DNA from: Westiellopsis prolifica IICB1
GTDB taxonomy: Bacteria > Cyanobacteriota > Cyanobacteriia > Cyanobacteriales > Nostocaceae
Assembly (NCBI RefSeq): GCF_004323185.1
Contig: NZ_NAPS01000002.1
Location: forward strand, 1,419,742-1,480,398
Length of the DNA: 60,657 nt
Direction of reading: 5' to 3'
This document shows, in pieces, positions 11,980 through 22,900 of the stretch (its first letter is position 1; the number at the start of each line of letters is the position of its first letter). Below the pieces are notes generated by a model that saw only the letters and a list, made by a program, of their open reading frames with translations, was not told where the DNA came from and did no database searches. The translations under genes and the position numbers were made by a program.

Positions 11980-12138
11980 ATGAACAAAAAATGGGCTGTT
12001 AAGCGGATTACTGTAAATCTGGCATCTAACGAAGCCAGTAAGCTTGAAAAATACTGTGATCAGACAGGTAGAGCAGCAACGGATGTGATTAGGGAACTCA
12101 TTCGAGCTTTACCAATGACTAGACCTGAGCAGAATTAA
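11980..12138 (+). CDS. small ribbon-helix-helix-like protein (paralog A)
   Basis: A 52-aa frame from ATG 11980 to TAA 12136-12138. A beta strand (VKRITVNL) is followed by a helix-turn-helix-like stretch (SNEASKLEKYCDQTGR, then AATDVIRELIRAL), the usual layout of CopG/Arc-type DNA-binding proteins. It closely matches the C-terminal two thirds of the minus-strand gene at 12447-12632 (shared KLE, TG+AATD, +ELI+ALP). No toxin gene is adjacent, so an antitoxin role is only a possibility. Conservation against the paralog is the main reason to call it a gene. Confidence 0.7.
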   Translation: MNKKWAVKRITVNLASNEASKLEKYCDQTGRAATDVIRELIRALPMTRPEQN

Positions 12139-12446: not shown

Positions 12447-12632
12447 CTAGGTTGCAGGCAACTCTTTAATGAGTTCCAGAATTATATCGGTTGCTGCTTT
12501 TCCCGTCCAGTCACAATGCTGTTCAAGTTTTCTAACTTCATCTGGTGTCAGTTCAAGAGTTATTTGTTTCACTGATGGTTTGTTAATGGGTGTTGCAAAC
12601 ATTGGCAATACGTTTGTAGAGCTTTCTTTCAT
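12447..12632 (-). CDS. small ribbon-helix-helix-like protein (paralog B)
   Basis: A 61-aa protein starting at the ATG at 12632. A variable N-terminus (about 1-18) is followed by the RHH-like strand VKQITLEL and helices (TPDEVRKLEQHCDWTG, then KAATDIILELIKELP). It is a paralog of 11980-12138, arranged tail to tail with it about 310 bp apart. The preserved pattern despite many base changes argues for selection. It is probably a DNA-binding regulator of unknown target. The intervening 12139-12446 holds no gene that I can see. Confidence 0.7.
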   Translation of the reverse strand: MKESSTNVLPMFATPINKPSVKQITLELTPDEVRKLEQHCDWTGKAATDIILELIKELPAT

Positions 12633-13310: not shown

Positions 13311-15047
13311 ATGAACATTAATACGGCTAGACAGTTCAGTTCTTCGGAAAATATATCTCAAAGTCAGTCATCTGCACCTTTATCAGTAGCAGAGGCTGTA
13401 GTTAAGATCTTGGAAAAGCTAGGAGTAATCTATGCATTTGGTGTCTCTGGAGGTGCGATCGCACCTGTGTGGGGTGCATTGCATAATAGTTCCTTACAAG
13501 TACTCCATTTTCGGCATGAAGCAGGAGCAGCGTTTGCAGCGACAGAAGCGTATTTTGCTAGCGATCGCCCAGTAGTGATATTCACTACCACAGGCCCAGG
13601 AATCACCAATGCTTTGACAGGACTATTAGCTGCCCGTTGGGAAGGTGCTAAGGTCATTCTGGTGTCAGCTGCAACTCCATCACCCAGACGCGGACGCTGG
13701 GCTTTACAGGAAACCAGTAACTATACCATGCCTGTTACAGGTCTTTTTACTTCAGGGACAATATTTCATTATGCAACGACTCTTGAATCTAGTGATGAAC
13801 TTCCAGAAGTTACACGAAGACTTGCCCTTGGCTGTGGAAGACCTGGAGGATTCGTAGCCCATCTGAGTATACCTACAAACATTCAGACAAGATCTGTGAG
13901 AGCATCGTTACCAAAAGCAGGTTTGTCTTACGGTTTGCCAACTGTAAGCAAGGAAACAATAGCAGAATGTGCGCGATTGCTGTCTGAAGGATCTTTTGCA
14001 ATCTGGGTTGGCTTTGGTGCGCGAGATGCAGCAGCGGAGATTCGCCAACTGGCTGAAAGGACAGGAGCTGCTGTCATGTGTTCACCCCGTGGTAAGGGTA
14101 TTTTTCCAGAAAATCATCCTCAGTTTGTAGGCGTTACAGGCTTTGGTGGACATGCATCAGTTCTAGCTTACATGCAAGAGCAACGTCCTTTGCGGACGCT
14201 CGTACTCGGAACACGCCTTGGTGAACTTACCTCTTTCTGGAATCCGGCGATGATCCCTACACGAGGATTTGTGCATGTTGACCTGAACGCAGAGGTTCCA
14301 GGAACAGCCTATCCATCAGCTGAGACGTTCACTATCCAGTCTGATGCTGGCATATTTCTCAGAGGACTGCTGAAATACTTTCCAGAAAATATAGGTTCTT
14401 CATTTGCGATCGCTTTACCCCATCCTAAACGTGATTTAATCGAACCACAGGCAAACGGTTTGGTGCGACCCCAGTTACTGATGGATGTGATTCAACGAGT
14501 AATTATCGACAGAACAGATGTACTGGTGATGGCAGAGTCTGCTAACTCGCTGGCTTGGGTAAATCCAATCCTACAATTTGCCAAACCAGCCCGCTTCCGT
14601 GTCAGTACTAGCTTTGCCTCTATGGGACATTTTGTTACAGGTGTTGTTGGTGCTGCTTTAGCACGTAAAGGCAAGGCAGTAGCCATTGTTGGTGATGGTG
14701 CGATGCTCATGAACAACGAAGTGAGTACGGCTGTAAAATATCAAATTCCTGCCATCTGGATTGTACTCAATGATGGGCGCTACAACATATGCGAACAAGG
14801 AATGACGTATTTAGGTTTTAAGGGCGTAGATGCAACAATTCCACAGGCAGATTTTGTCAAAATAGCCCAAGGAATGGGAGCTGATGGTATCAGGGTTGAA
14901 AGCGAATCTAAAGTTCAGGCAGCATTAGAGAGAGCAATGGCAGCTACTTGTCCATTTGTAGTTGATGTACTCATCGATCCCACCCAAGAACCACCATCTG
15001 AAGGTCGTTATCAAAGTCTGATTTCACAAGGCGCTACAAATTATTAA
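13311..15047 (+). CDS. thiamine-diphosphate enzyme, acetolactate-synthase-like
   Basis: A 578-aa ThDP-dependent enzyme with the three-domain order of the acetolactate synthase/benzaldehyde lyase family. The N-terminal Pyr domain (about 25-190) has catalytic Glu70 in FRHEAGAAFAATE. The central domain is about 210-350, and the C-terminal PP domain (about 385-560) has GDG at 461-463 and Asn487 at the end of the ThDP/Mg motif. Family members make or break C-C bonds next to a carbonyl; the substrate here is unknown. It is not the housekeeping IlvB, because the context is a KAS III-like gene 38 bp downstream and then an SGNH and an SDR gene. The ATG start at 13311 lies after a gene-poor region. Confidence 0.85.
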   Translation: MNINTARQFSSSENISQSQSSAPLSVAEAVVKILEKLGVIYAFGVSGGAIAPVWGALHNSSLQVLHFRHEAGAAFAATEAYFASDRPVVIFTTTGPGITNALTGLLAARWEGAKVILVSAATPSPRRGRWALQETSNYTMPVTGLFTSGTIFHYATTLESSDELPEVTRRLALGCGRPGGFVAHLSIPTNIQTRSVRASLPKAGLSYGLPTVSKETIAECARLLSEGSFAIWVGFGARDAAAEIRQLAERTGAAVMCSPRGKGIFPENHPQFVGVTGFGGHASVLAYMQEQRPLRTLVLGTRLGELTSFWNPAMIPTRGFVHVDLNAEVPGTAYPSAETFTIQSDAGIFLRGLLKYFPENIGSSFAIALPHPKRDLIEPQANGLVRPQLLMDVIQRVIIDRTDVLVMAESANSLAWVNPILQFAKPARFRVSTSFASMGHFVTGVVGAALARKGKAVAIVGDGAMLMNNEVSTAVKYQIPAIWIVLNDGRYNICEQGMTYLGFKGVDATIPQADFVKIAQGMGADGIRVESESKVQAALERAMAATCPFVVDVLIDPTQEPPSEGRYQSLISQGATNY

Positions 15048-15085
15048 ATTAATTATTTCACTTTGTTTAATAGGGCAGTTCAACT

Positions 15086-16225
15086 ATGGTGTATTCTCCA
15101 GTAGGTATTAGTTCACTCGCTATCAGTTTGCCAAGCATTAAACGCACAAGAGATTATTATATAGAAAAATACCCAGACTTAGTTGCTCAATCTGAGGAAA
15201 AAAGTTTAGCAAAGTTGTTTTCTCTGACTGACTCTACTCCTAGTAATGAGTTTGATCTAGAGATGATGCCTTATTTGTCTGATCCCTTTCGTGGAACAGT
15301 TGAGCAGAGACTGCTGGGACCAGGGGAGTCTTCTCTGACACTCGAATATGATGCAGCAATAAAAGCTCTTGAAGCAGCCAAGCTTTCTGTTGACGACATA
15401 GATCTCATACTTGTTGCTTCAGTCTGGCCTGAACAAATTGGATTTGGCAACGCTGCCTTTCTTGCCCAGCAACTTGACTTTCAGGGTGCTGCTTGGAATC
15501 TAGATGCAGCCTGTGGAGTAACACCAGTTGCACTTCAAACTGCCTGTGCCTTGGTGCGAGGCGGAGAGTACAAAAAAGTGCTTGTGGTTGTCTCATGTAC
15601 ATACTCTCGCTTTTTCGATGAACGCGATACTATCTTCTGGTGTATTAGTGATGGCGCTGGGGCTTTTGTTGTCGATAGGCTCGAACAAAATCAGGGAGTT
15701 CTAGGTACAAAAACCATTAATACACAACTATTGTGTAACACTTTATTCTCTAAAATTTCAGAGGACGAACAGGGTCATCCACTAGTTCGTATGCAGATTG
15801 GAAAAGAAGCAAACAAGCTCTTCCGAGAAACGGCTGCGAATTTTCTTCGTACTTGTTGTGAGGGTGCCGCCAGTGCAGCTGGTGTATCTTTAGAGCAAAT
15901 CGACTTTTTTCTTTTCAATACACCTACAGCTTGGTTTGCACGTTTTTGCACACGTGTACTTGGCATTGAACTAGAGCGGACAATTAATATTCATCCGCAA
16001 TATGCAAATATTGGCTCGGTACTCTCGTTAGCCAATATGTACCATGCTGCACACTTGAGCAAAATTCGTGAAAACGATTTGGTTCTGCTCTATGGATTCG
16101 GTGCAGCAGGTGCTGCTTCTGCAAGTGTGATGCGTTGGGGAAATGTAGCTCTAGGTCCTGATCCTCTTAAGGTAACAGACTCAACAGTGAAAATTTCTGA
16201 AGGCAGTAAGTATGTATCTTGTTGA
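15086..16225 (+). CDS. KAS III-like (FabH-type) condensing enzyme, atypical active site
   Basis: A 379-aa thiolase-fold protein resembling 3-oxoacyl-ACP synthase III. The nucleophile Cys143 sits in DAACGVTP and the conserved Asn308 in HPQYANIGS. The segment that carries His-Gln-Ala-Asn in FabH reads Asn-Thr-Pro-Thr here (278-281), so the usual catalytic His is missing. Such changes occur in KAS III relatives that transfer acyl groups or condense without the normal decarboxylation. The protein is about 60 residues longer than FabH, with extra sequence at 25-75. It is probably co-transcribed with the ThDP enzyme. A 24-bp palindrome follows the stop codon. Confidence 0.85.
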   Translation: MVYSPVGISSLAISLPSIKRTRDYYIEKYPDLVAQSEEKSLAKLFSLTDSTPSNEFDLEMMPYLSDPFRGTVEQRLLGPGESSLTLEYDAAIKALEAAKLSVDDIDLILVASVWPEQIGFGNAAFLAQQLDFQGAAWNLDAACGVTPVALQTACALVRGGEYKKVLVVVSCTYSRFFDERDTIFWCISDGAGAFVVDRLEQNQGVLGTKTINTQLLCNTLFSKISEDEQGHPLVRMQIGKEANKLFRETAANFLRTCCEGAASAAGVSLEQIDFFLFNTPTAWFARFCTRVLGIELERTINIHPQYANIGSVLSLANMYHAAHLSKIRENDLVLLYGFGAAGAASASVMRWGNVALGPDPLKVTDSTVKISEGSKYVSC

Positions 16226-16243
16226 TTAAATACTCTTGGTTTG

Positions 16244-16267
16244 TAGTAAGCACTTAAGTGCTTACTA
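16244..16267. repeat. 24-bp perfect palindrome
   Basis: TAGTAAGCACTT followed by its exact reverse complement, 18 bp after the KAS III-like stop. No T run follows, so it is not a standard terminator. A similar TTAGCACGCTTAGTGCTT sequence occurs near 45260 and a GTAGTAAGCGCTAC form near 22934, suggesting a small interspersed family. Confidence 0.75.
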
Positions 16268-16332
16268 TGAATGAATAGGTATTTTTTATTTAGATAATCG
16301 GTATAATACCGAAAACATATCTAAGGTTCACT

Positions 16333-17334
16333 GTGCAAAGAAAATTTTTGGCAACCGGACTTTTACTCTTGTCTGTTGCTTTTCCACTCAAAGTTTTAGC
16401 AAAGAGTTATGACGAGATTTATGTGTTTGGCGATAGCTTTTCTGATACAGGCAATGTATTTAACGCCACAGGTGGAGCTATCCCGCCCAGTCCATATGTT
16501 GATGGGCGTTTTTCCAACGGTTCAGTTTGGGTGGAATATCTCGCCTCTGATTTAGGAATCAATTTTAATCCACAGACCAATTTTGCTTTTGGCGGTGCAA
16601 CCACAGGCTTTGATAATATTGGCTTGGCAGGTTTACCAGGATTACAGCAACAAATTAATAGCTTTACAACAGCAAATGCGTCTGTTGATCCGAATGCTCT
16701 TTACATTGTCTGGGCTAGTACGAATGATTACATAAAGTATTTTTTTGGTGATGTTCCCGATCCTAACCAAACAGTCACAAATATATCAACTGCGGTAGAA
16801 TCACTAATTGCTGTCGGCGCTAAAGATATTATGGTGGTTAACCAGCCCGATTTAGGAAAATTCCCGATTACAGGCGGGAATAATCAAACTTCTGATGCAC
16901 TTAGCAATTTGATCAGTACACATAACTCCAACTTGACTGCAAGTATCTACTTATGGGATCAGCAACTAAATCCAGATATCAATATTATTGGTCTTGATGT
17001 TAATTCTTTATTTAATCGGATAATTGCAGATCCCCAGGAATTTGGTTTTACCAATGCAACTGACTCTTGCCTTCCGGGAGACTTATCAGTTGTACCGATA
17101 AATCCTCCGACACAGCCAGTTAACTGTACTCCAGATACCTTTGTGTTTTGGGATCAACTTCATCCAACGACGGCTACTCATAAGACAATTGGAGAATTAG
17201 CATTTTCAACACTTAAGAAAGAAAAAGTGCCTGTTCCTGAACCTTCTCCTGTGTTGGGGGTGTTAACGTTTGGTGCTTTAGCTGTAGTTGGGAAAAGGAA
17301 ACGTAAAGAACAATCTGATGTAGTGCAAAAATAA
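16333..17334 (+). CDS. SGNH/GDSL esterase with PEP-CTERM anchor
   Basis: A 333-aa exported hydrolase. A signal peptide (about 1-24) is followed by the SGNH blocks: GDS with Ser35 (VFGDSFSDTGN), block II GRFSNGSVWVEYL, block III with Asn131-Asp132 (ASTNDY), and the catalytic pair Asp274/His277 in DQLHP. The C-terminus is a PEP-CTERM signal: VPVPEPSP, a hydrophobic stretch and KRKRK. It is thus likely processed by an exosortase such as the one at 42933 and delivered to the outer layers. The GTG at 16333 is the only reasonable start. It lies between the KAS III-like gene and the SDR, so it may act on the product of that locus. Confidence 0.85.
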   Translation: MQRKFLATGLLLLSVAFPLKVLAKSYDEIYVFGDSFSDTGNVFNATGGAIPPSPYVDGRFSNGSVWVEYLASDLGINFNPQTNFAFGGATTGFDNIGLAGLPGLQQQINSFTTANASVDPNALYIVWASTNDYIKYFFGDVPDPNQTVTNISTAVESLIAVGAKDIMVVNQPDLGKFPITGGNNQTSDALSNLISTHNSNLTASIYLWDQQLNPDINIIGLDVNSLFNRIIADPQEFGFTNATDSCLPGDLSVVPINPPTQPVNCTPDTFVFWDQLHPTTATHKTIGELAFSTLKKEKVPVPEPSPVLGVLTFGALAVVGKRKRKEQSDVVQK

Positions 17335-17360
17335 GGAATCAAAAAGAAAGGATAAAACCT

Positions 17361-18110
17361 ATGACAGGTCAATTTGATGGAAAAGTCGCGTTAGTTACTG
17401 GGGCTTCATCAGGAATTGGTCAAGCAACAGCGATCGCATTTGCACACGCTGGAGCGAAAGTCGTAGTTGCTAGTCGTCGAATTGTTGAAGGCGAGGAGAC
17501 AGCGCGTAGCATACAAGAGGCAGGAGGAGAGGCGATTTTTGTCAAGACTGATGTGTCAAAGGCGTCCGAAGTTGAGACATTAGTTGACAAAACTTTGGAA
17601 GTCTATGGTCGTCTGGATTACGCTTGCAACAGCGCTGGTATTCCGGCAGCTGGTCCACTTACGGATGTGTCTGAAGAAGACTGGGATCAGGTGTTCAATG
17701 TCAATCTTAAAGGAACCTGGCTTTGCCTGAAGTATGAGATCAAGGCAATGCTTAAACAAGGTGGTGGTGCGATCGTCAACATAGGTTCTGTTGGAGGTGT
17801 TGTCGGTGTTGCTGGCTATGCAAGCTACTCTGCCACAAAGGGGGGAATCATAGCCTTAACCCGTTCCGCTGCAATGGAGTATGCCAAGTCCAGTATCCGA
17901 ATCAATGTAGTTAGCCCTGGTGCCATCAAAACCAATATGCTAGCGACTATTCCCTCAGATATACTTGCTCATCTTCCAGAAGTGCATCCCATCGGGCGTA
18001 TTGGCAAGCCAGAGGAGATCGCACAAGCAGTGGTGTGGTTATGTTCGGACGCAGCTTCCTTCGTCATTGGACACAACATGATGATCGATGGGGGATATAC
18101 TGCTCAATAA
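17361..18110 (+). CDS. short-chain dehydrogenase/reductase (SDR)
   Basis: A classical 249-aa SDR. It has the NAD(P)-binding TGASSGIG (13-20), NSAG at about 90-93, and the catalytic Ser143, Tyr156 and Lys160 (YSATK). The C-terminal MMIDGGYTAQ is typical of the family. Arg39 and Arg40 after the second strand suggest a preference for NADPH. The gene starts 26 bp after the SGNH stop and is likely the last gene of a ThDP-KAS III-SGNH-SDR run. In that setting a ketoreductase step on a condensed product is plausible, but the substrate is not known. Confidence 0.9.
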   Translation: MTGQFDGKVALVTGASSGIGQATAIAFAHAGAKVVVASRRIVEGEETARSIQEAGGEAIFVKTDVSKASEVETLVDKTLEVYGRLDYACNSAGIPAAGPLTDVSEEDWDQVFNVNLKGTWLCLKYEIKAMLKQGGGAIVNIGSVGGVVGVAGYASYSATKGGIIALTRSAAMEYAKSSIRINVVSPGAIKTNMLATIPSDILAHLPEVHPIGRIGKPEEIAQAVVWLCSDAASFVIGHNMMIDGGYTAQ

Positions 18111-18176: not shown

Positions 18177-21100
18177 TTAATCTTCTGCATAAGCAACTGC
18201 TCCCAAAGCTTTCAAAGAAATTTTTTGAGCTTGTGTTATGCCTTGAATGCCATTGATATTTGTACCCTCATATGGTCTCTCATTTCTTAAAGTTTTGATA
18301 CACTCACCACTGTTAACATCCCAGATTTTAATAGTGTCATCTTGACTACCACTAGCTAGAGTTTGACCATTAGGACTGAAAGCAACAGACCAAATTAATT
18401 GTGTATGTCCCTCTAAAGTTTGAATGCATTGATTTGTAAGGAGATCCCAAAGTTTCACTGTTTGATCTTGACTACCACTCGCTAGCATGGAACCATCTGG
18501 ACTAAAGGCTACCGAGTATACAGAACTGGTATGACCCTTCAAAGTTTGAATACATTCTCCAGTTTTGACATTCCACAGCTTTATTGTTTGGTCGCTGTTA
18601 GCACTGGCTAGTATTAGACTATCAGGACTGTAGGTAACACACCAAATCCAATTATTGTGTCCTTGAAGCGTCTGAATACACTGCCCTGTAATAATATTCC
18701 AAATCTTTATTGTTGCATCGTGGGAGCCAGTTGCGATCATTTGATCATCTGGACTGAAGGCAATAGCCCACATTCTATCAGCATGACCTTCCAAGACATG
18801 AATACAGTTGTCAGTTTTGACATCCCATAATCTAGCTGTTTGATCATCACTGCTACTTGCAAGGAATTGACTATTAGCACTTATGGCAACCGATGTCACC
18901 CAATTATTATGGCCTCGCAAAGTTTTCAAACATTCACCACTACTAAGATCCCACAGCTTCACGCTTTGGTCTTCACTGCCACTTGCAAGGATATGACTAT
19001 TAGCATTTAAGGCAACAGATGTAACTCGATTGCTATGCCCTCTCAAAGTTTTGAGACACTGACCAGTATTAGCGTCCCACAGTTTCACCATTTTATTGCC
19101 ACTCCCACTTACAAGCATGTGACCATTGGCACTGAAGGCTACCGCCCATATTCCACTACTATAACCTTGCAAGGTCTTAAGGCATTTACCAGTAGCAATA
19201 TCCCATAGCTTGAGTGTTTGATCATCACCCGCACTTGCCAGGATATGATTATCTGGATTCCAGGCGACTGACCATAGTCTGCTAGCATGACCCAGTAAAG
19301 TTCTAAGACATTCACCAGTGTTGACATCCCATAGTTTGACCGTTTGATCATCACCCGCACTTGCGAGTGTATGACCATCTAAACTGAAGACTACTGAATT
19401 TATACAATCAGTATGTCCGTGTAAAATATTGACATGTTGACCGATTTCAAGATTCCACAATCTCACTGTTCGATCATGGCTGCCACTGGCTAAAGTTTGA
19501 CCATCTGGACTAAAGCTAACTGACCAAACTCCGCCATAATGTCCTTGTAAAGTTTTGAGACATTTGCCAGTGCTTACATCCCATAATTTCACTGTTTGGT
19601 CCTGATAGCCACTGGCTAGAGTTTGACCATTTGGGCTAAAAGCAATTGATAAAACTCTACTATTATTGCCCAGTAAACTTTTGAGGCATTTACCAGTATG
19701 AGCATCCCACAGCTTCACTGTTTGATCTTCACTAGCACTGGCTATTGTATTACCTTTAGGAGCAAAGGCAACTGACGAAATCCCGCTACTATGTCCCTGT
19801 AAAGTCGCCAGACAATCTCCGGTATTCACATCCCATAGTTTGATTGTTTGATCCTTACCACCACTTGCGAGGACTTTTCCATCAGGACTGAAGCTAACTG
19901 ACCACACCCAATCTGTATGCCCAGTACAAACAAGCTGTTGTTTACCATCTGCAACTTGATAGATGTGAACCTGATTATCAGTATCCCCCATAGCTAAGAG
20001 TTTACCATCAGGGCTAAATGCTACTGAATGAATACCACCAAGGGTTTCAGCAAAAACACACTTGGCAAGATCCGCATGAGCAAAATTTACATTGTGCAAA
20101 ATAACACTGCGTAGATCAGCTTGCCAAACAGCTAGATTAGAAAAATCATAGCCGCTTAAATCTGTCTGTAATTGACTAAACAAATTGAGAATATTTCCCG
20201 CACTATAGCCTGGTTCTTGTGATAATTCTTCTCGGAGTCTTGCTAAAATCTGAGTTAATTGTTTTTCAATACCTTTTTTACTTCTAAAGACAGTGAGTAG
20301 TTCATTAATTAATGGTTGGATGATGAGGCGAATTTGAGTTTCTTTGATGTAGTCTTTGGTAGTTGCCTTCATTAAGGCGTGACATCTAAAAAGATCGAAA
20401 TTTTCAGTTGTGATTTCTTCGCATAGCTGCTCTATCAATACCTGAGTGACATATTCCATAACTACAGGTTGAAGAGTGAAAGTTGCAGCACTTTGGTCGA
20501 TTAGTGATCGCCTAACCAGAGATTCTAGAGCCTCTAGTAATTTTTTTGGTGGTGTTGGCGATACGATATCTTCTCGTAAATCTGATAACGAAACTGGCTC
20601 ACGATTAATTGCTAGCCAATACATGATTTCTTTTTCTAGGTTTGATAAACGAGCAAACTGCTGGTCTAAAACATCACGAATATCTCCAAAAACTGCTGCA
20701 TCTTGTTCCAGGAATTGAGTTACATTACCACCAAAAATATCTTGAATAGTCGTAGCAATGATCTTTAAAGCTAATGGATTGCCTGCATACAGATCAATCA
20801 TTCTTTTACATTCTTTGTCTGTTGCAGATAGTCCCTTGACTTTCAGAATTTCCTGTCCCTCTTCCACATTTAAACCAGTTAGGAGTAACGAGTGAACAGG
20901 TAGCGATCTACCTTCCATTAATGCTACTTCTTTGGGTTTTTCCCGACTAGTTAGCACTAAGCAGCTAGTGTGAGCTGCTTCTCCTAGCTGTTGAAATAGC
21001 TGACCATATCCCTCATATCCTTCAGCGTAATGTCCAGAGCGATTACCACTGCTGAGAATTGACTCTATATTGTCAAGAATCACTAGACAACGATTATTTC

Positions 21101-21704
21101 GTAAGTAATCAATTAGCCTGGATATGATCTCAGCTAAGTTTTCTGGAAGGTTGGTTTCTGTTTCTTGCTCGTCAGAGAGAAATTGGATAAGATTTACGAG
21201 GACAGATTTAACAGGTGGTGCTTCTCTTAGCGATCGCCAGATGACATATTCAAATTCTTCCTGAATCTGTTGAGCAAGCTTGATAGACAAAGACGTTTTA
21301 CCAATCCCGCCCATTCCTAATACTGCTACAAATCGACATCGCTCATTCAGAATCCATTGCTCTAAAGTGGCAATTTCTTGCGTACGTCCATAAAAAACTG
21401 TTGAAAAAGTAGCATGTCCCCAATCTATTCGACTATTTGAGCTAATATAGTCACTTTTTTCTAATTTTACTTTAAAAACGGTAAATAGCTTCTCAAGGGT
21501 TTTTTTATCAACCCCGGACTCGCGGTTGAGTACTTTTGAGATTGTACTGGGATATAACCCAGTCAGTGCGCTCATTTCTTCAAGTGTATAGCTGTTGCCA
21601 AAGTTTTCTTGTGCTTCTGACCCACGCTTTGCTTCTTGAAGTTTTTGCAAACCTTTGGTGGTGAGTGCAACTCCGCGCTTGCGTCTCCAATTCTGTAAAG
21701 CCAT
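18177..21704 (-). CDS. NACHT-type STAND NTPase with 14 WD40 repeats and N-terminal HTH
   Basis: A 1175-aa signal-transduction ATPase. The N-terminus (about 38-85) resembles a helix-turn-helix (LEEMSALTGLYPSTISKVLN). The NTPase has a P loop GMGGIGKTS (130-138), Walker B LVILDNI (207-213) and a winged-helix/linker region to about 540. From about 555 to 1143 there are 14 consecutive 42-residue WD40 units with SVAFSPDG and LWDV signatures, enough for two complete seven-blade propellers. STAND proteins switch on by nucleotide-driven assembly after their sensor part binds a ligand; bacterial members act in regulation, cell death or phage defence. The ATG is at 21704, and the gene faces the SDR tail to tail. 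No separate effector gene is adjacent. Confidence 0.9.
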   Translation of the reverse strand: MALQNWRRKRGVALTTKGLQKLQEAKRGSEAQENFGNSYTLEEMSALTGLYPSTISKVLNRESGVDKKTLEKLFTVFKVKLEKSDYISSNSRIDWGHATFSTVFYGRTQEIATLEQWILNERCRFVAVLGMGGIGKTSLSIKLAQQIQEEFEYVIWRSLREAPPVKSVLVNLIQFLSDEQETETNLPENLAEIISRLIDYLRNNRCLVILDNIESILSSGNRSGHYAEGYEGYGQLFQQLGEAAHTSCLVLTSREKPKEVALMEGRSLPVHSLLLTGLNVEEGQEILKVKGLSATDKECKRMIDLYAGNPLALKIIATTIQDIFGGNVTQFLEQDAAVFGDIRDVLDQQFARLSNLEKEIMYWLAINREPVSLSDLREDIVSPTPPKKLLEALESLVRRSLIDQSAATFTLQPVVMEYVTQVLIEQLCEEITTENFDLFRCHALMKATTKDYIKETQIRLIIQPLINELLTVFRSKKGIEKQLTQILARLREELSQEPGYSAGNILNLFSQLQTDLSGYDFSNLAVWQADLRSVILHNVNFAHADLAKCVFAETLGGIHSVAFSPDGKLLAMGDTDNQVHIYQVADGKQQLVCTGHTDWVWSVSFSPDGKVLASGGKDQTIKLWDVNTGDCLATLQGHSSGISSVAFAPKGNTIASASEDQTVKLWDAHTGKCLKSLLGNNSRVLSIAFSPNGQTLASGYQDQTVKLWDVSTGKCLKTLQGHYGGVWSVSFSPDGQTLASGSHDRTVRLWNLEIGQHVNILHGHTDCINSVVFSLDGHTLASAGDDQTVKLWDVNTGECLRTLLGHASRLWSVAWNPDNHILASAGDDQTLKLWDIATGKCLKTLQGYSSGIWAVAFSANGHMLVSGSGNKMVKLWDANTGQCLKTLRGHSNRVTSVALNANSHILASGSEDQSVKLWDLSSGECLKTLRGHNNWVTSVAISANSQFLASSSDDQTARLWDVKTDNCIHVLEGHADRMWAIAFSPDDQMIATGSHDATIKIWNIITGQCIQTLQGHNNWIWCVTYSPDSLILASANSDQTIKLWNVKTGECIQTLKGHTSSVYSVAFSPDGSMLASGSQDQTVKLWDLLTNQCIQTLEGHTQLIWSVAFSPNGQTLASGSQDDTIKIWDVNSGECIKTLRNERPYEGTNINGIQGITQAQKISLKALGAVAYAED

Positions 21705-22138: not shown

Positions 22139-22900
22139 ATGCTCAAAAACTCAAATTTAGACTCTTGGTTTGTTTGCCCTAAACCTAATCCAGAAGCCAA
22201 AATTCGGTTATTTTGTTTCCCCTACGCTGGTGGTAGCGCAAATATCTTTCGTAGCTGGTCAAATCATCTTCCAGTAGATGTAGAAATCTGTGCGATTGAG
22301 CTTCCTGGTAGAGGAATGCGGATCAAGTTACCTTCATTCACTCAATTAGAACCTCTAGTCACAGAGTTAGCGAGTGTTTTTAAACCAAACTTAGACAAAC
22401 CATTTGCTTTCTTTGGTCACAGCATGGGCGGACTTGTGAGTTTTGAGCTTGCTCGTCTACTCCGCAAACAGTATGGTGTAAAACCGAGTCATCTGTTTAT
22501 ATCAGCTCGCCGCGCACCCCAACTTGTTGATCCCAAATCACCTATTCATGACTTACCGGAGGCAGAATTTATTGAAGAATTGCGGCGTTTAAATGGAACT
22601 CCAGAAGCTTTACTGAACAATGATCAACTTATGCAATTATTCATGCCGATTCTACGGGCAGATTTTGCAGTACTAGAAACTTATATTTACAGTCAAGAAA
22701 CACCACTGGATTGTCCGATTACTGCTTTTGGTGGGTTGCAAGATCAAGAAGCTCGTCATGATCAAATTAAAGCATGGCAGGAGCAAACAAGCGCTTCTTT
22801 TTCATTACATATGCTCCCTGGAAACCACTTTTTTTTACACTCATTTCAGTCATTATTACTAGAGATTATTTATCGGAAAATAAATGATATCAATCCCTAA
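22139..22900 (+). CDS. type II thioesterase (GrsT/RifR-like alpha/beta hydrolase)
   Basis: A 253-aa stand-alone thioesterase of the kind that edits NRPS/PKS carrier proteins. The N-terminal CFPYAGGSANIF leads to the oxyanion region. The nucleophile is Ser95 in GHSMGG, with Asp202 (GGLQDQEARH) and His230 (LPGNHFF) completing the triad. The family removes wrongly loaded or stalled acyl groups from phosphopantetheine arms. No NRPS, PKS or carrier protein is in the window, so it either serves a remote megasynthase or works with the KAS III-like locus next door. The ATG start is at 22139. Confidence 0.88.
   Translation: MLKNSNLDSWFVCPKPNPEAKIRLFCFPYAGGSANIFRSWSNHLPVDVEICAIELPGRGMRIKLPSFTQLEPLVTELASVFKPNLDKPFAFFGHSMGGLVSFELARLLRKQYGVKPSHLFISARRAPQLVDPKSPIHDLPEAEFIEELRRLNGTPEALLNNDQLMQLFMPILRADFAVLETYIYSQETPLDCPITAFGGLQDQEARHDQIKAWQEQTSASFSLHMLPGNHFFLHSFQSLLLEIIYRKINDINP

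Follow-up and report, generated by a model that had tools for sequence, protein, structure and literature searches.

A candidate lyase-independent branch of the furanolide machinery in Westiellopsis prolifica and related cyanobacteria

Introduction

Four core genes of furanolide biosynthesis have been described, encoding an ammonia lyase, a coenzyme A (CoA) ligase, the thiamine diphosphate (ThDP)-dependent enzyme CybE, and the furanolide synthase CybF (PMC13288894, PMC12395478). CybF resembles 3-oxoacyl-acyl carrier protein (ACP) synthases, whereas CybE is the ThDP enzyme (PMC8777810, PMC13288894). Furanolide enzymes assemble a densely substituted lactone from few catalysts and are reported to be under development as biocatalysts (PMC12395478). 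Here we analyzed a 60,657-nt stretch of the Westiellopsis prolifica IICB1 genome (hereafter, the window), which contains a pair of the same kind, a ThDP enzyme followed by a 3-oxoacyl-ACP synthase III (KAS III)-like enzyme, within a short run of same-direction genes.

In the kind of its core, this locus is like the clusters for cyanobacterin (cyb), maculalactone (mac), and nostoclide (ncl), a likeness drawn through stand-in loci that carry a lyase (lyase-type loci, described below) and not through the published sequences. It differs from them in having no ammonia lyase and no such CoA ligase; a hydrolase, a STAND-type gene, and small ribbon-helix-helix (RHH)-like genes are found instead. Two further systems can be likened by description. 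The genome of Plesiocystis pacifica, associated with deoxyenhygrolide, has cybE and cybF homologues located together without the rest of the cyb operon, as in the window; unlike the window, it is myxobacterial, and a cinnamoyl donor has been proposed there (PMC8777810). The bacterial carbazole pathway also employs a ThDP and KAS III-like pair (PMC7466098), CqsB3/NzsH and CqsB1/NzsJ, together with the cyclase CqsB2/NzsI, whereas no cyclase was found among the scanned genes beside the window pair.

On sequence grounds, we consider it somewhat probable that the window pair, homologous to CybE and CybF, forms the core of a compact natural-product cassette. With similar, moderate confidence, we propose that it represents a so far uncharacterised branch of the CybE/CybF furanolide machinery, one independent of the lyase and drawing on another acyl donor.

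Conservation of the pair and locus types

A first-pass annotation of the window, made from the sequence alone, had described four same-direction genes, encoding two C-C bond-forming enzymes (ThDP and KAS III-like), an exported SGNH esterase, and a short-chain dehydrogenase/reductase (SDR). The open reading frame (ORF) coordinates and Pfam agree with this description, with the esterase as a GDSL/SGNH hydrolase, placing four plus-strand ORFs at 13311-18110 with intergenic gaps of 38, 107, and 26 nt (Table 1). The same annotation had set the recurrence of the pair in other genomes as a test beforehand, and the pair does recur. Searching 217 genomes of the family with the KAS protein at E <= 1e-60 gave matches in 104 genomes and none in 113. 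The 70 best-scoring matches (62-100% identity) are spread over 63 of the 217 genomes, and in 64 of these 70 a ThDP gene lies directly upstream on the same strand, with a median gap of about 20 nt. This set omits three matches of 62% identity and two partial matches in G389, all lower-scoring, and since the ThDP matches used for the count were the best part of those listed, the six unpaired KAS matches may be an overcount. The pairing is more than chance.

The comparison set comprised, besides the window, 80 named loci and 39 other stretches, among which five are duplicates of named loci. The named loci, L080-L159, were the top 80 when 182 relatives were ranked by similarity to the window. Based on local gene content, which set the group labels, 46 were lyase-free cassettes with a hydrolase or STAND gene (window included), 32 were of the lyase-/ligase-type (L149, L153, and L156 placed there by hand), nine contained a large kinase-like protein (kinase-type), and eight consisted of ThDP and KAS genes alone (ThDP-only). 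The other 25, designated type IV, are a remainder class, and two of them, L122 and L130, fall inside the window clade defined below.

The closest named relative is L080, from the same-genus genome of Pelatocladus maniniholoensis (G410), whose KAS is 91% identical to that of the window. Comparison with L080 indicated purifying selection, with ratios of nonsynonymous to synonymous substitution rates (dN/dS) of 0.21 for the ThDP enzyme, 0.16 for the KAS, and 0.155 for the hydrolase.

The window genome (7.31 Mb in 29 contigs, 99.98% complete) also contains a second ThDP/KAS pair at G000:C12:38324-41363 (L037:10324-13363), with 66-68% identity for the KAS and 71% for the ThDP enzyme. Judged by eye from the translations, its surroundings include transposase-like ORFs, a 1328-aa ORF resembling a nonribosomal peptide synthetase (NRPS), and an alcohol-dehydrogenase-like ORF. 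In L060, the only remainder locus run through Pfam, a carrier domain is fused to the KAS, there is no ThDP match, and the neighboring genes encode an AMP ligase, a chorismate-binding enzyme, a phosphopantetheinyl transferase, and a carrier protein; parts of this layout are common to many loci of the remainder class. A large hybrid protein resembling a protein kinase, an ATPase, a GAF protein, and a histidine kinase (by Pfam on the L131 protein only) stands beside lyase-type and kinase-type loci, including L043, L051, L052, L107, L128, L131, L140, L143, and others.

Phylogeny of the two enzymes

The lyase-type loci served as stand-ins for CybE and CybF in the comparisons. A PF00221 aromatic amino-acid lyase, an AMP-binding ligase, a ThDP enzyme, and a KAS occur together in L142, L147, L150, and L155, and the lyase-type loci, in which these genes follow one another, correspond in gene content to the four-gene furanolide core. 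L142, the only one of them analyzed with Pfam, also encodes a chorismate mutase and a prephenate dehydrogenase; the other loci were typed by BLAST matches to L142. A ThDP gene was seen in 25 of the 32 loci and a P450 in some; where testable, the ThDP gene lies directly upstream of the KAS gene in 21 of 26. L150 is the locus of Nostoc 210A, for which putative nostoclide-like clusters have been named by homology to the cyanobacterin producer (PMC5987646). The window KAS shares 45-60% identity with the KAS of the lyase-type loci (54-60% for an 11-locus subset). By homology to the stand-ins, the window ThDP enzyme is assigned to the CybE type and the KAS to the CybF type. The resemblance to furanolide pathways proposed in the first-pass annotation is thus borne out, in that both window enzymes have homologues in loci carrying a lyase and a CoA ligase.

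The KAS tree (117 rows, omitting the duplicates L112, L136, L154, L157, and L159) contained a 64-row clade with a Shimodaira-Hasegawa-like approximate likelihood ratio test (SH-aLRT) support of 95 and none of the 30 lyase-type rows. This clade comprises all 45 cassette rows, nine kinase-type rows, eight ThDP-only rows, and two remainder rows. A reduced tree of 57 rows gave the same split, with 29 rows at 97/79 and a 25-row core at 100/100. In 50 of the 61 clade loci whose upstream sequence is long enough to judge, the ThDP gene immediately precedes the KAS gene in the same orientation. The ThDP tree (93 rows, omitting three loci) likewise set 50 cassette-side rows apart from the lyase-type rows with a support of 92, and in a 52-row tree 23 cassette rows split off at 97/86. 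Because the tree roots are uncertain, these results are splits and not directions of change.

The ThDP enzyme itself scored 1014.5 bits against NF035927, the ScyA-related model (cut-off 1000), a threshold also passed by the ThDP enzyme of the lyase-type locus L142; its nearest solved structure by sequence is BbmA (8x3x). The acetolactate synthase model gave only 194.5 bits (cut-off 538.35), and the tree separates the enzyme from L076 and L077, the acetolactate-synthase-like proteins encoded by the same genome. Both the score and the tree position rule out a housekeeping acetolactate synthase, a grouping that the first-pass annotation had named as contrary to its proposal. The scytonemin enzyme ScyA belongs to the same NF035927 subfamily and was placed among the lyase-type ThDP enzymes in the 93-row tree (one ScyA, L178, was not recovered). 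The window enzyme is ruled out as ScyA by the equivalog model, where it reached 935.9 bits (cut-off 1020), and none of the three ScyA-like matches in the window genome reached this cut-off. The published gene table for scytonemin lists no KAS III gene (PMC2726228).

The third ScyA-related ThDP enzyme of this genome (G000:C12:543465-545171; L078:6984-8891) has no adjoining KAS match, and a STAND-type gene copy lies about 6 kb away. In the same-genus locus L199 (G411), the ThDP enzyme is 79% identical to that of the window, compared with 93% for the KAS, 96% for the hydrolase, and 91% for the SDR, as if it had been replaced or were evolving faster.

Aromatic-acid supply genes

The first-pass annotation had reported no ammonia lyase at the locus; this was right and extends to the whole window genome, which gave no PF00221 match. 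Among 43 genomes carrying similar pairs (44 loci; several are drafts or metagenome-assembled genomes, completeness not stated), 29 likewise contained no PF00221 lyase. It was also correct as to the CoA ligase, since none of the furanolide (CybC) type is present at the locus; a halogenase was looked for among the ORFs at the locus only. Neither a lyase nor a furanolide-type ligase was found upstream in any of the 52 clade loci with >8 kb of upstream sequence, a result that follows partly from the construction of the group labels. The separation of window-type from lyase-type pairs in both trees is, unlike this label-built absence, an independent point in the sequence data. Because the window strain does not have the usual cinnamoyl supply, its acyl donor should come from elsewhere.

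In one lyase-type locus, L124, the genes for a lyase, a ligase, a ThDP enzyme, and a KAS are succeeded by a convergent STAND gene resembling the one in the window, which makes this locus a possible link between the two types.

Active site of the KAS III-like enzyme

The window KAS has Cys143, Asn278 at the position of the FabH His, and Asn308, the same Cys-Asn-Asn pattern as in the lyase-type loci. In the alignment, the catalytic Cys is kept in 44 of 45 cassette rows and in all 30 lyase-type rows, and Asn occupies the FabH-His position in 41/45 and 23/30, respectively. The exceptions in the cassette group are Thr for Cys (1/45) and His at the second catalytic place (4/45); those in the lyase-type group are Tyr (5/30) or His (2/30) at the second place and Val for the last Asn (1/30). 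Asn was found at the second place in only five of nine kinase-type rows, and the ThDP-only group retains Cys in 6/8 and this Asn in 6/8. An AlphaFold2 (AF2) model of the KAS had a predicted local distance difference test (pLDDT) score of 89.8 and a predicted template modeling (pTM) score of 0.90, and the best Foldseek matches were PqsBC and FabH structures, confirming the fold. L038 and L112, which are the same locus, contain, close to the end of a contig, a KAS relative (67% identity) bearing Thr instead of the catalytic Cys, and no adjoining ThDP gene was seen.

Under a strict rule, no group-specific columns separated the KAS of the whole clade from that of the lyase-type loci. Once nine early-branching rows were removed, leaving a 54-row core clade, and all columns were ranked, differences from the 30 lyase-type rows appeared at positions 141, 146, 147, 216, 218, and 337, picked after the fact as the top of that ranking. 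Three of them adjoin the catalytic Cys (A/G in the core clade vs S at 141, T vs A at 146, and P vs L at 147), and position 337 lies in the glycine loop. These differences fit a changed acyl donor or ring closure.

Proposed chemistry and alternative explanations

In the proposed scheme, the ThDP enzyme would condense two alpha-keto acids, a chemistry common to CybE (PMC13288894, PMC12395478) and CqsB3 (PMC7466098). The KAS would load an acyl group from a thioester onto Cys143, acylate the ThDP-made intermediate, and form another C-C bond in a decarboxylative step, so that the product would be furanolide/butenolide-like or a closely related acylated acyloin. Because the strain has no PF00221 lyase, the acyl donor would not be a cinnamoyl or coumaroyl thioester made by such an enzyme; a fatty-acid-derived or other acyl thioester seems likelier. 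From position and family, the SDR, where present, may reduce a ketone or enone, the hydrolase may act outside the cytoplasm on the product or an acyl ester, and the STAND and small RHH-like genes are probable regulators. An alpha,beta-unsaturated acyl group is required for a Morita-Baylis-Hillman-type closure. For CybF, the literature describes O-acylation of the intermediate and ring closure through a reaction of this type with a hydride shift (PMC8777810, PMC13288894, PMC12395478), and for CqsB1 a decarboxylative condensation with an acyl-ACP (PMC7466098); given the missing cinnamoyl supply, the chemistry of the window KAS may lie between these two second steps. We favor a furanolide/butenolide-like product, with moderate confidence, because of the sequence kinship.

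Several observations weigh against a lyase-independent furanolide branch. The lyase-type loci stand in for CybE and CybF in every comparison, and in seven of the 32 no ThDP gene was seen. The kinase-type loci are discordant, with the KAS inside the window clade and the ThDP enzyme outside it. PF00221 lyases are present, in one or two copies, in 14 of the 43 genomes with similar pairs, and the best match to the L142 ligase in the window genome, an AMP-binding enzyme of 35% identity, is encoded away from the locus. The hydrolase is absent from 25 and the SDR from 47 of the 57 testable clade loci. The KAS column differences between the core clade and the lyase-type loci may reflect another reaction and not just another substrate, and without a cinnamoyl donor the ring closure may differ from that of CybF.

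One rival explanation is a carbazole-type logic, in which the pair would act like CqsB3 and CqsB1 and the KAS itself would make no lactone. This pathway is described as using indolepyruvate, pyruvate, and 3-hydroxybutyryl-ACP (PMC7466098); the lack of a lyase in the genome, the lack of an L142-kind ligase at the locus, and the active-site differences would suit it. However, both enzymes group with cyanobacterial lyase-type and ScyA enzymes (in trees without CqsB sequences), and the scanned genes beside the pair include no cyclase. We regard this reading as unlikely, though it deserves some weight. It is more doubtful still that the locus makes a canonical furanolide from scattered supply genes, with a cinnamic-type acid activated by a distant ligase and obtained from outside or through a lyase of another kind. 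P. pacifica offers a parallel, as it yields deoxyenhygrolides and is reported to have two co-localised cybE and cybF homologues yet no homologue of the cybA-J operon, the genetic link being unproven there (PMC8777810), and the AMP-binding enzymes elsewhere in the window genome could supply such a ligase. This explanation is countered by the absence of PF00221 lyases from the window genome and most genomes with similar pairs, and by the split between window-type and lyase-type pairs in the trees.

That the pair is a relic, or a spare acetolactate synthase with a FabH, appears very improbable. Although the Thr-bearing relative at a contig edge (L038/L112) and the 113 genomes without a KAS match could be taken as signs of decay, the dN/dS values of the pair (0.16-0.21), the near-invariant catalytic Cys of the cassette group, and the pairing in 64 of 70 matches contradict this, and the window genome has separate acetolactate-synthase-like proteins (matched as N-terminal fragments) and a FabH-like match for housekeeping roles.

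A further, rather improbable idea is that the product of the cassette is a small signaling lactone or acyloin and not a defensive furanolide. The pair would join alpha-keto acids and a fatty-acid-derived acyl group, the SDR and exported hydrolase would finish or turn over the compound, and the STAND protein and the small RHH-like pair would sense or control it, a layout analogous to gamma-butyrolactone signaling in Streptomyces. If true, this would be a self-contained chemical signaling module of heterocystous cyanobacteria.

Neighboring genes

The features at and around the locus are listed in Table 1. None of the 14 ORFs of >=80 aa that overlap 8-26 kb resembles an NRPS or a polyketide synthase; six of their proteins were scanned with Pfam, and carriers of <80 aa fall outside this list. 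A promoter and terminator scan showed no excess over shuffled sequences.

Table 1. Predicted features of the window locus and its surroundings, with the evidence for each assignment
Feature	Coordinates	Strand	Length	Evidence and remarks
Small RHH-like protein 1	11980..12138	+	52 aa	ParG match below cut-off
Small protein 2, resembles protein 1	12447..12632	-	61 aa	No Pfam match
ThDP-dependent C-C ligase, ScyA-related (CybE/ScyA kind)	13311..15047	+	578 aa	Pfam TPP_enzyme N/M/C, NCBIfam, trees
KAS III-like condensing enzyme (CybF-like)	15086..16225	+	379 aa	Pfam ACP_syn_III and ACP_syn_III_C, residues, AF2 model, Foldseek, trees
GDSL/SGNH hydrolase	16333..17334	+	333 aa	Pfam Lipase_GDSL PF00657, GDSFSD motif
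SDR oxidoreductase, accessory	17361..18110	+	249 aa	adh_short_C2 PF13561, NF004818 over cut-off
STAND-type protein (weak HTH below cut-off, NB-ARC, WD40 repeats)	18177..21704	-		Pfam; convergent neighbor
Type II thioesterase-like protein	22139-22900			PF00975; beyond the opposite-strand STAND gene

Downstream of the KAS gene, the 57 clade loci with >5 kb of downstream sequence contain the hydrolase in 32, the SDR in 10, and the convergent STAND gene in 41, and 25 such lyase-type loci contain them in 0, 6, and 1, respectively; the second-copy KAS rows L049_1 and L057_1 were left out of these counts. The four same-genus loci (window, L080, L198, and L199) have a gene order that runs from small RHH-like genes through ThDP, KAS, hydrolase, SDR, and STAND to thioesterase. 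Here the SDR occurs in only two of four; the first-pass annotation was right about its presence in the window, and its place in the pathway is that of an accessory gene. The hydrolase has a signal-like N-terminal segment and a PEP-CTERM-like C-terminus (both by eye), and V/IPEP lies close to the end of the protein in 21 of the 33 hydrolases compared from cassettes, the window's among them, suggesting that it is probably exported.

The N-terminal part of the STAND protein has five further matches in the window genome (29-65% identity), and its homologues beside cassettes elsewhere mostly share 54-70% identity over the whole protein. Because the nearest match within the genome (65%) is about as close as the cassette homologues, the STAND genes beside cassettes may not be strict orthologues. 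In PADLOC, the protein matched HEAT-ARM_XIII, a repeat-type hit, and weakly PDC-S27.

Of 49 genomes examined, 31 carry their best homologue of small gene 1 no more than 12 kb from the KAS and 18 do not; the remaining 14 of the 63 KAS genomes have no row among the matches listed. These homologues are upstream in some loci and past the STAND gene in others. Among the same-genus loci, small gene 1 is missing only from L199, whose sequence ends there, and small protein 2 occurs in all four. A cassette-specific role for the small RHH-like proteins holds only partly, as relatives occur in 216 of the 217 family genomes, three of them at 96-98% identity in G308-G310, genomes outside the KAS matches. 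The STAND gene is a possible regulator or sensor, and small protein 1 a possible DNA-binding regulator.

The first-pass annotation had also connected the type II thioesterase with the pathway. Its gene is present and kept in all four same-genus loci, whereas among the clade loci compared it was seen in the window and L080 only and in none outside the genus. It is a genus-level neighbor outside the conserved cassette, and we rejected it as a pathway member.

Significance

The first-pass annotation considered the locus a candidate for a novel pathway. Its core argument holds, and the novelty is narrower than claimed, as the logic of the pair is already known from furanolides and bacterial carbazoles. 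What appears to be new, in our moderately confident view, is a conserved lyase-independent branch of the known CybE/CybF machinery, and no published description of such a lyase-free group was found in the open-licence literature.

Cassettes of this kind recur in many related strains, and the window cassette probably makes a related, uncharacterised compound. The existence of a large and distinct set of these enzyme pairs that lack genes for aromatic-acid supply would widen the range of acyl donors and products of this chemistry. Because the pair is spread over 63 of the 217 family genomes and is under purifying selection in the window's genus, its product probably matters to these organisms.

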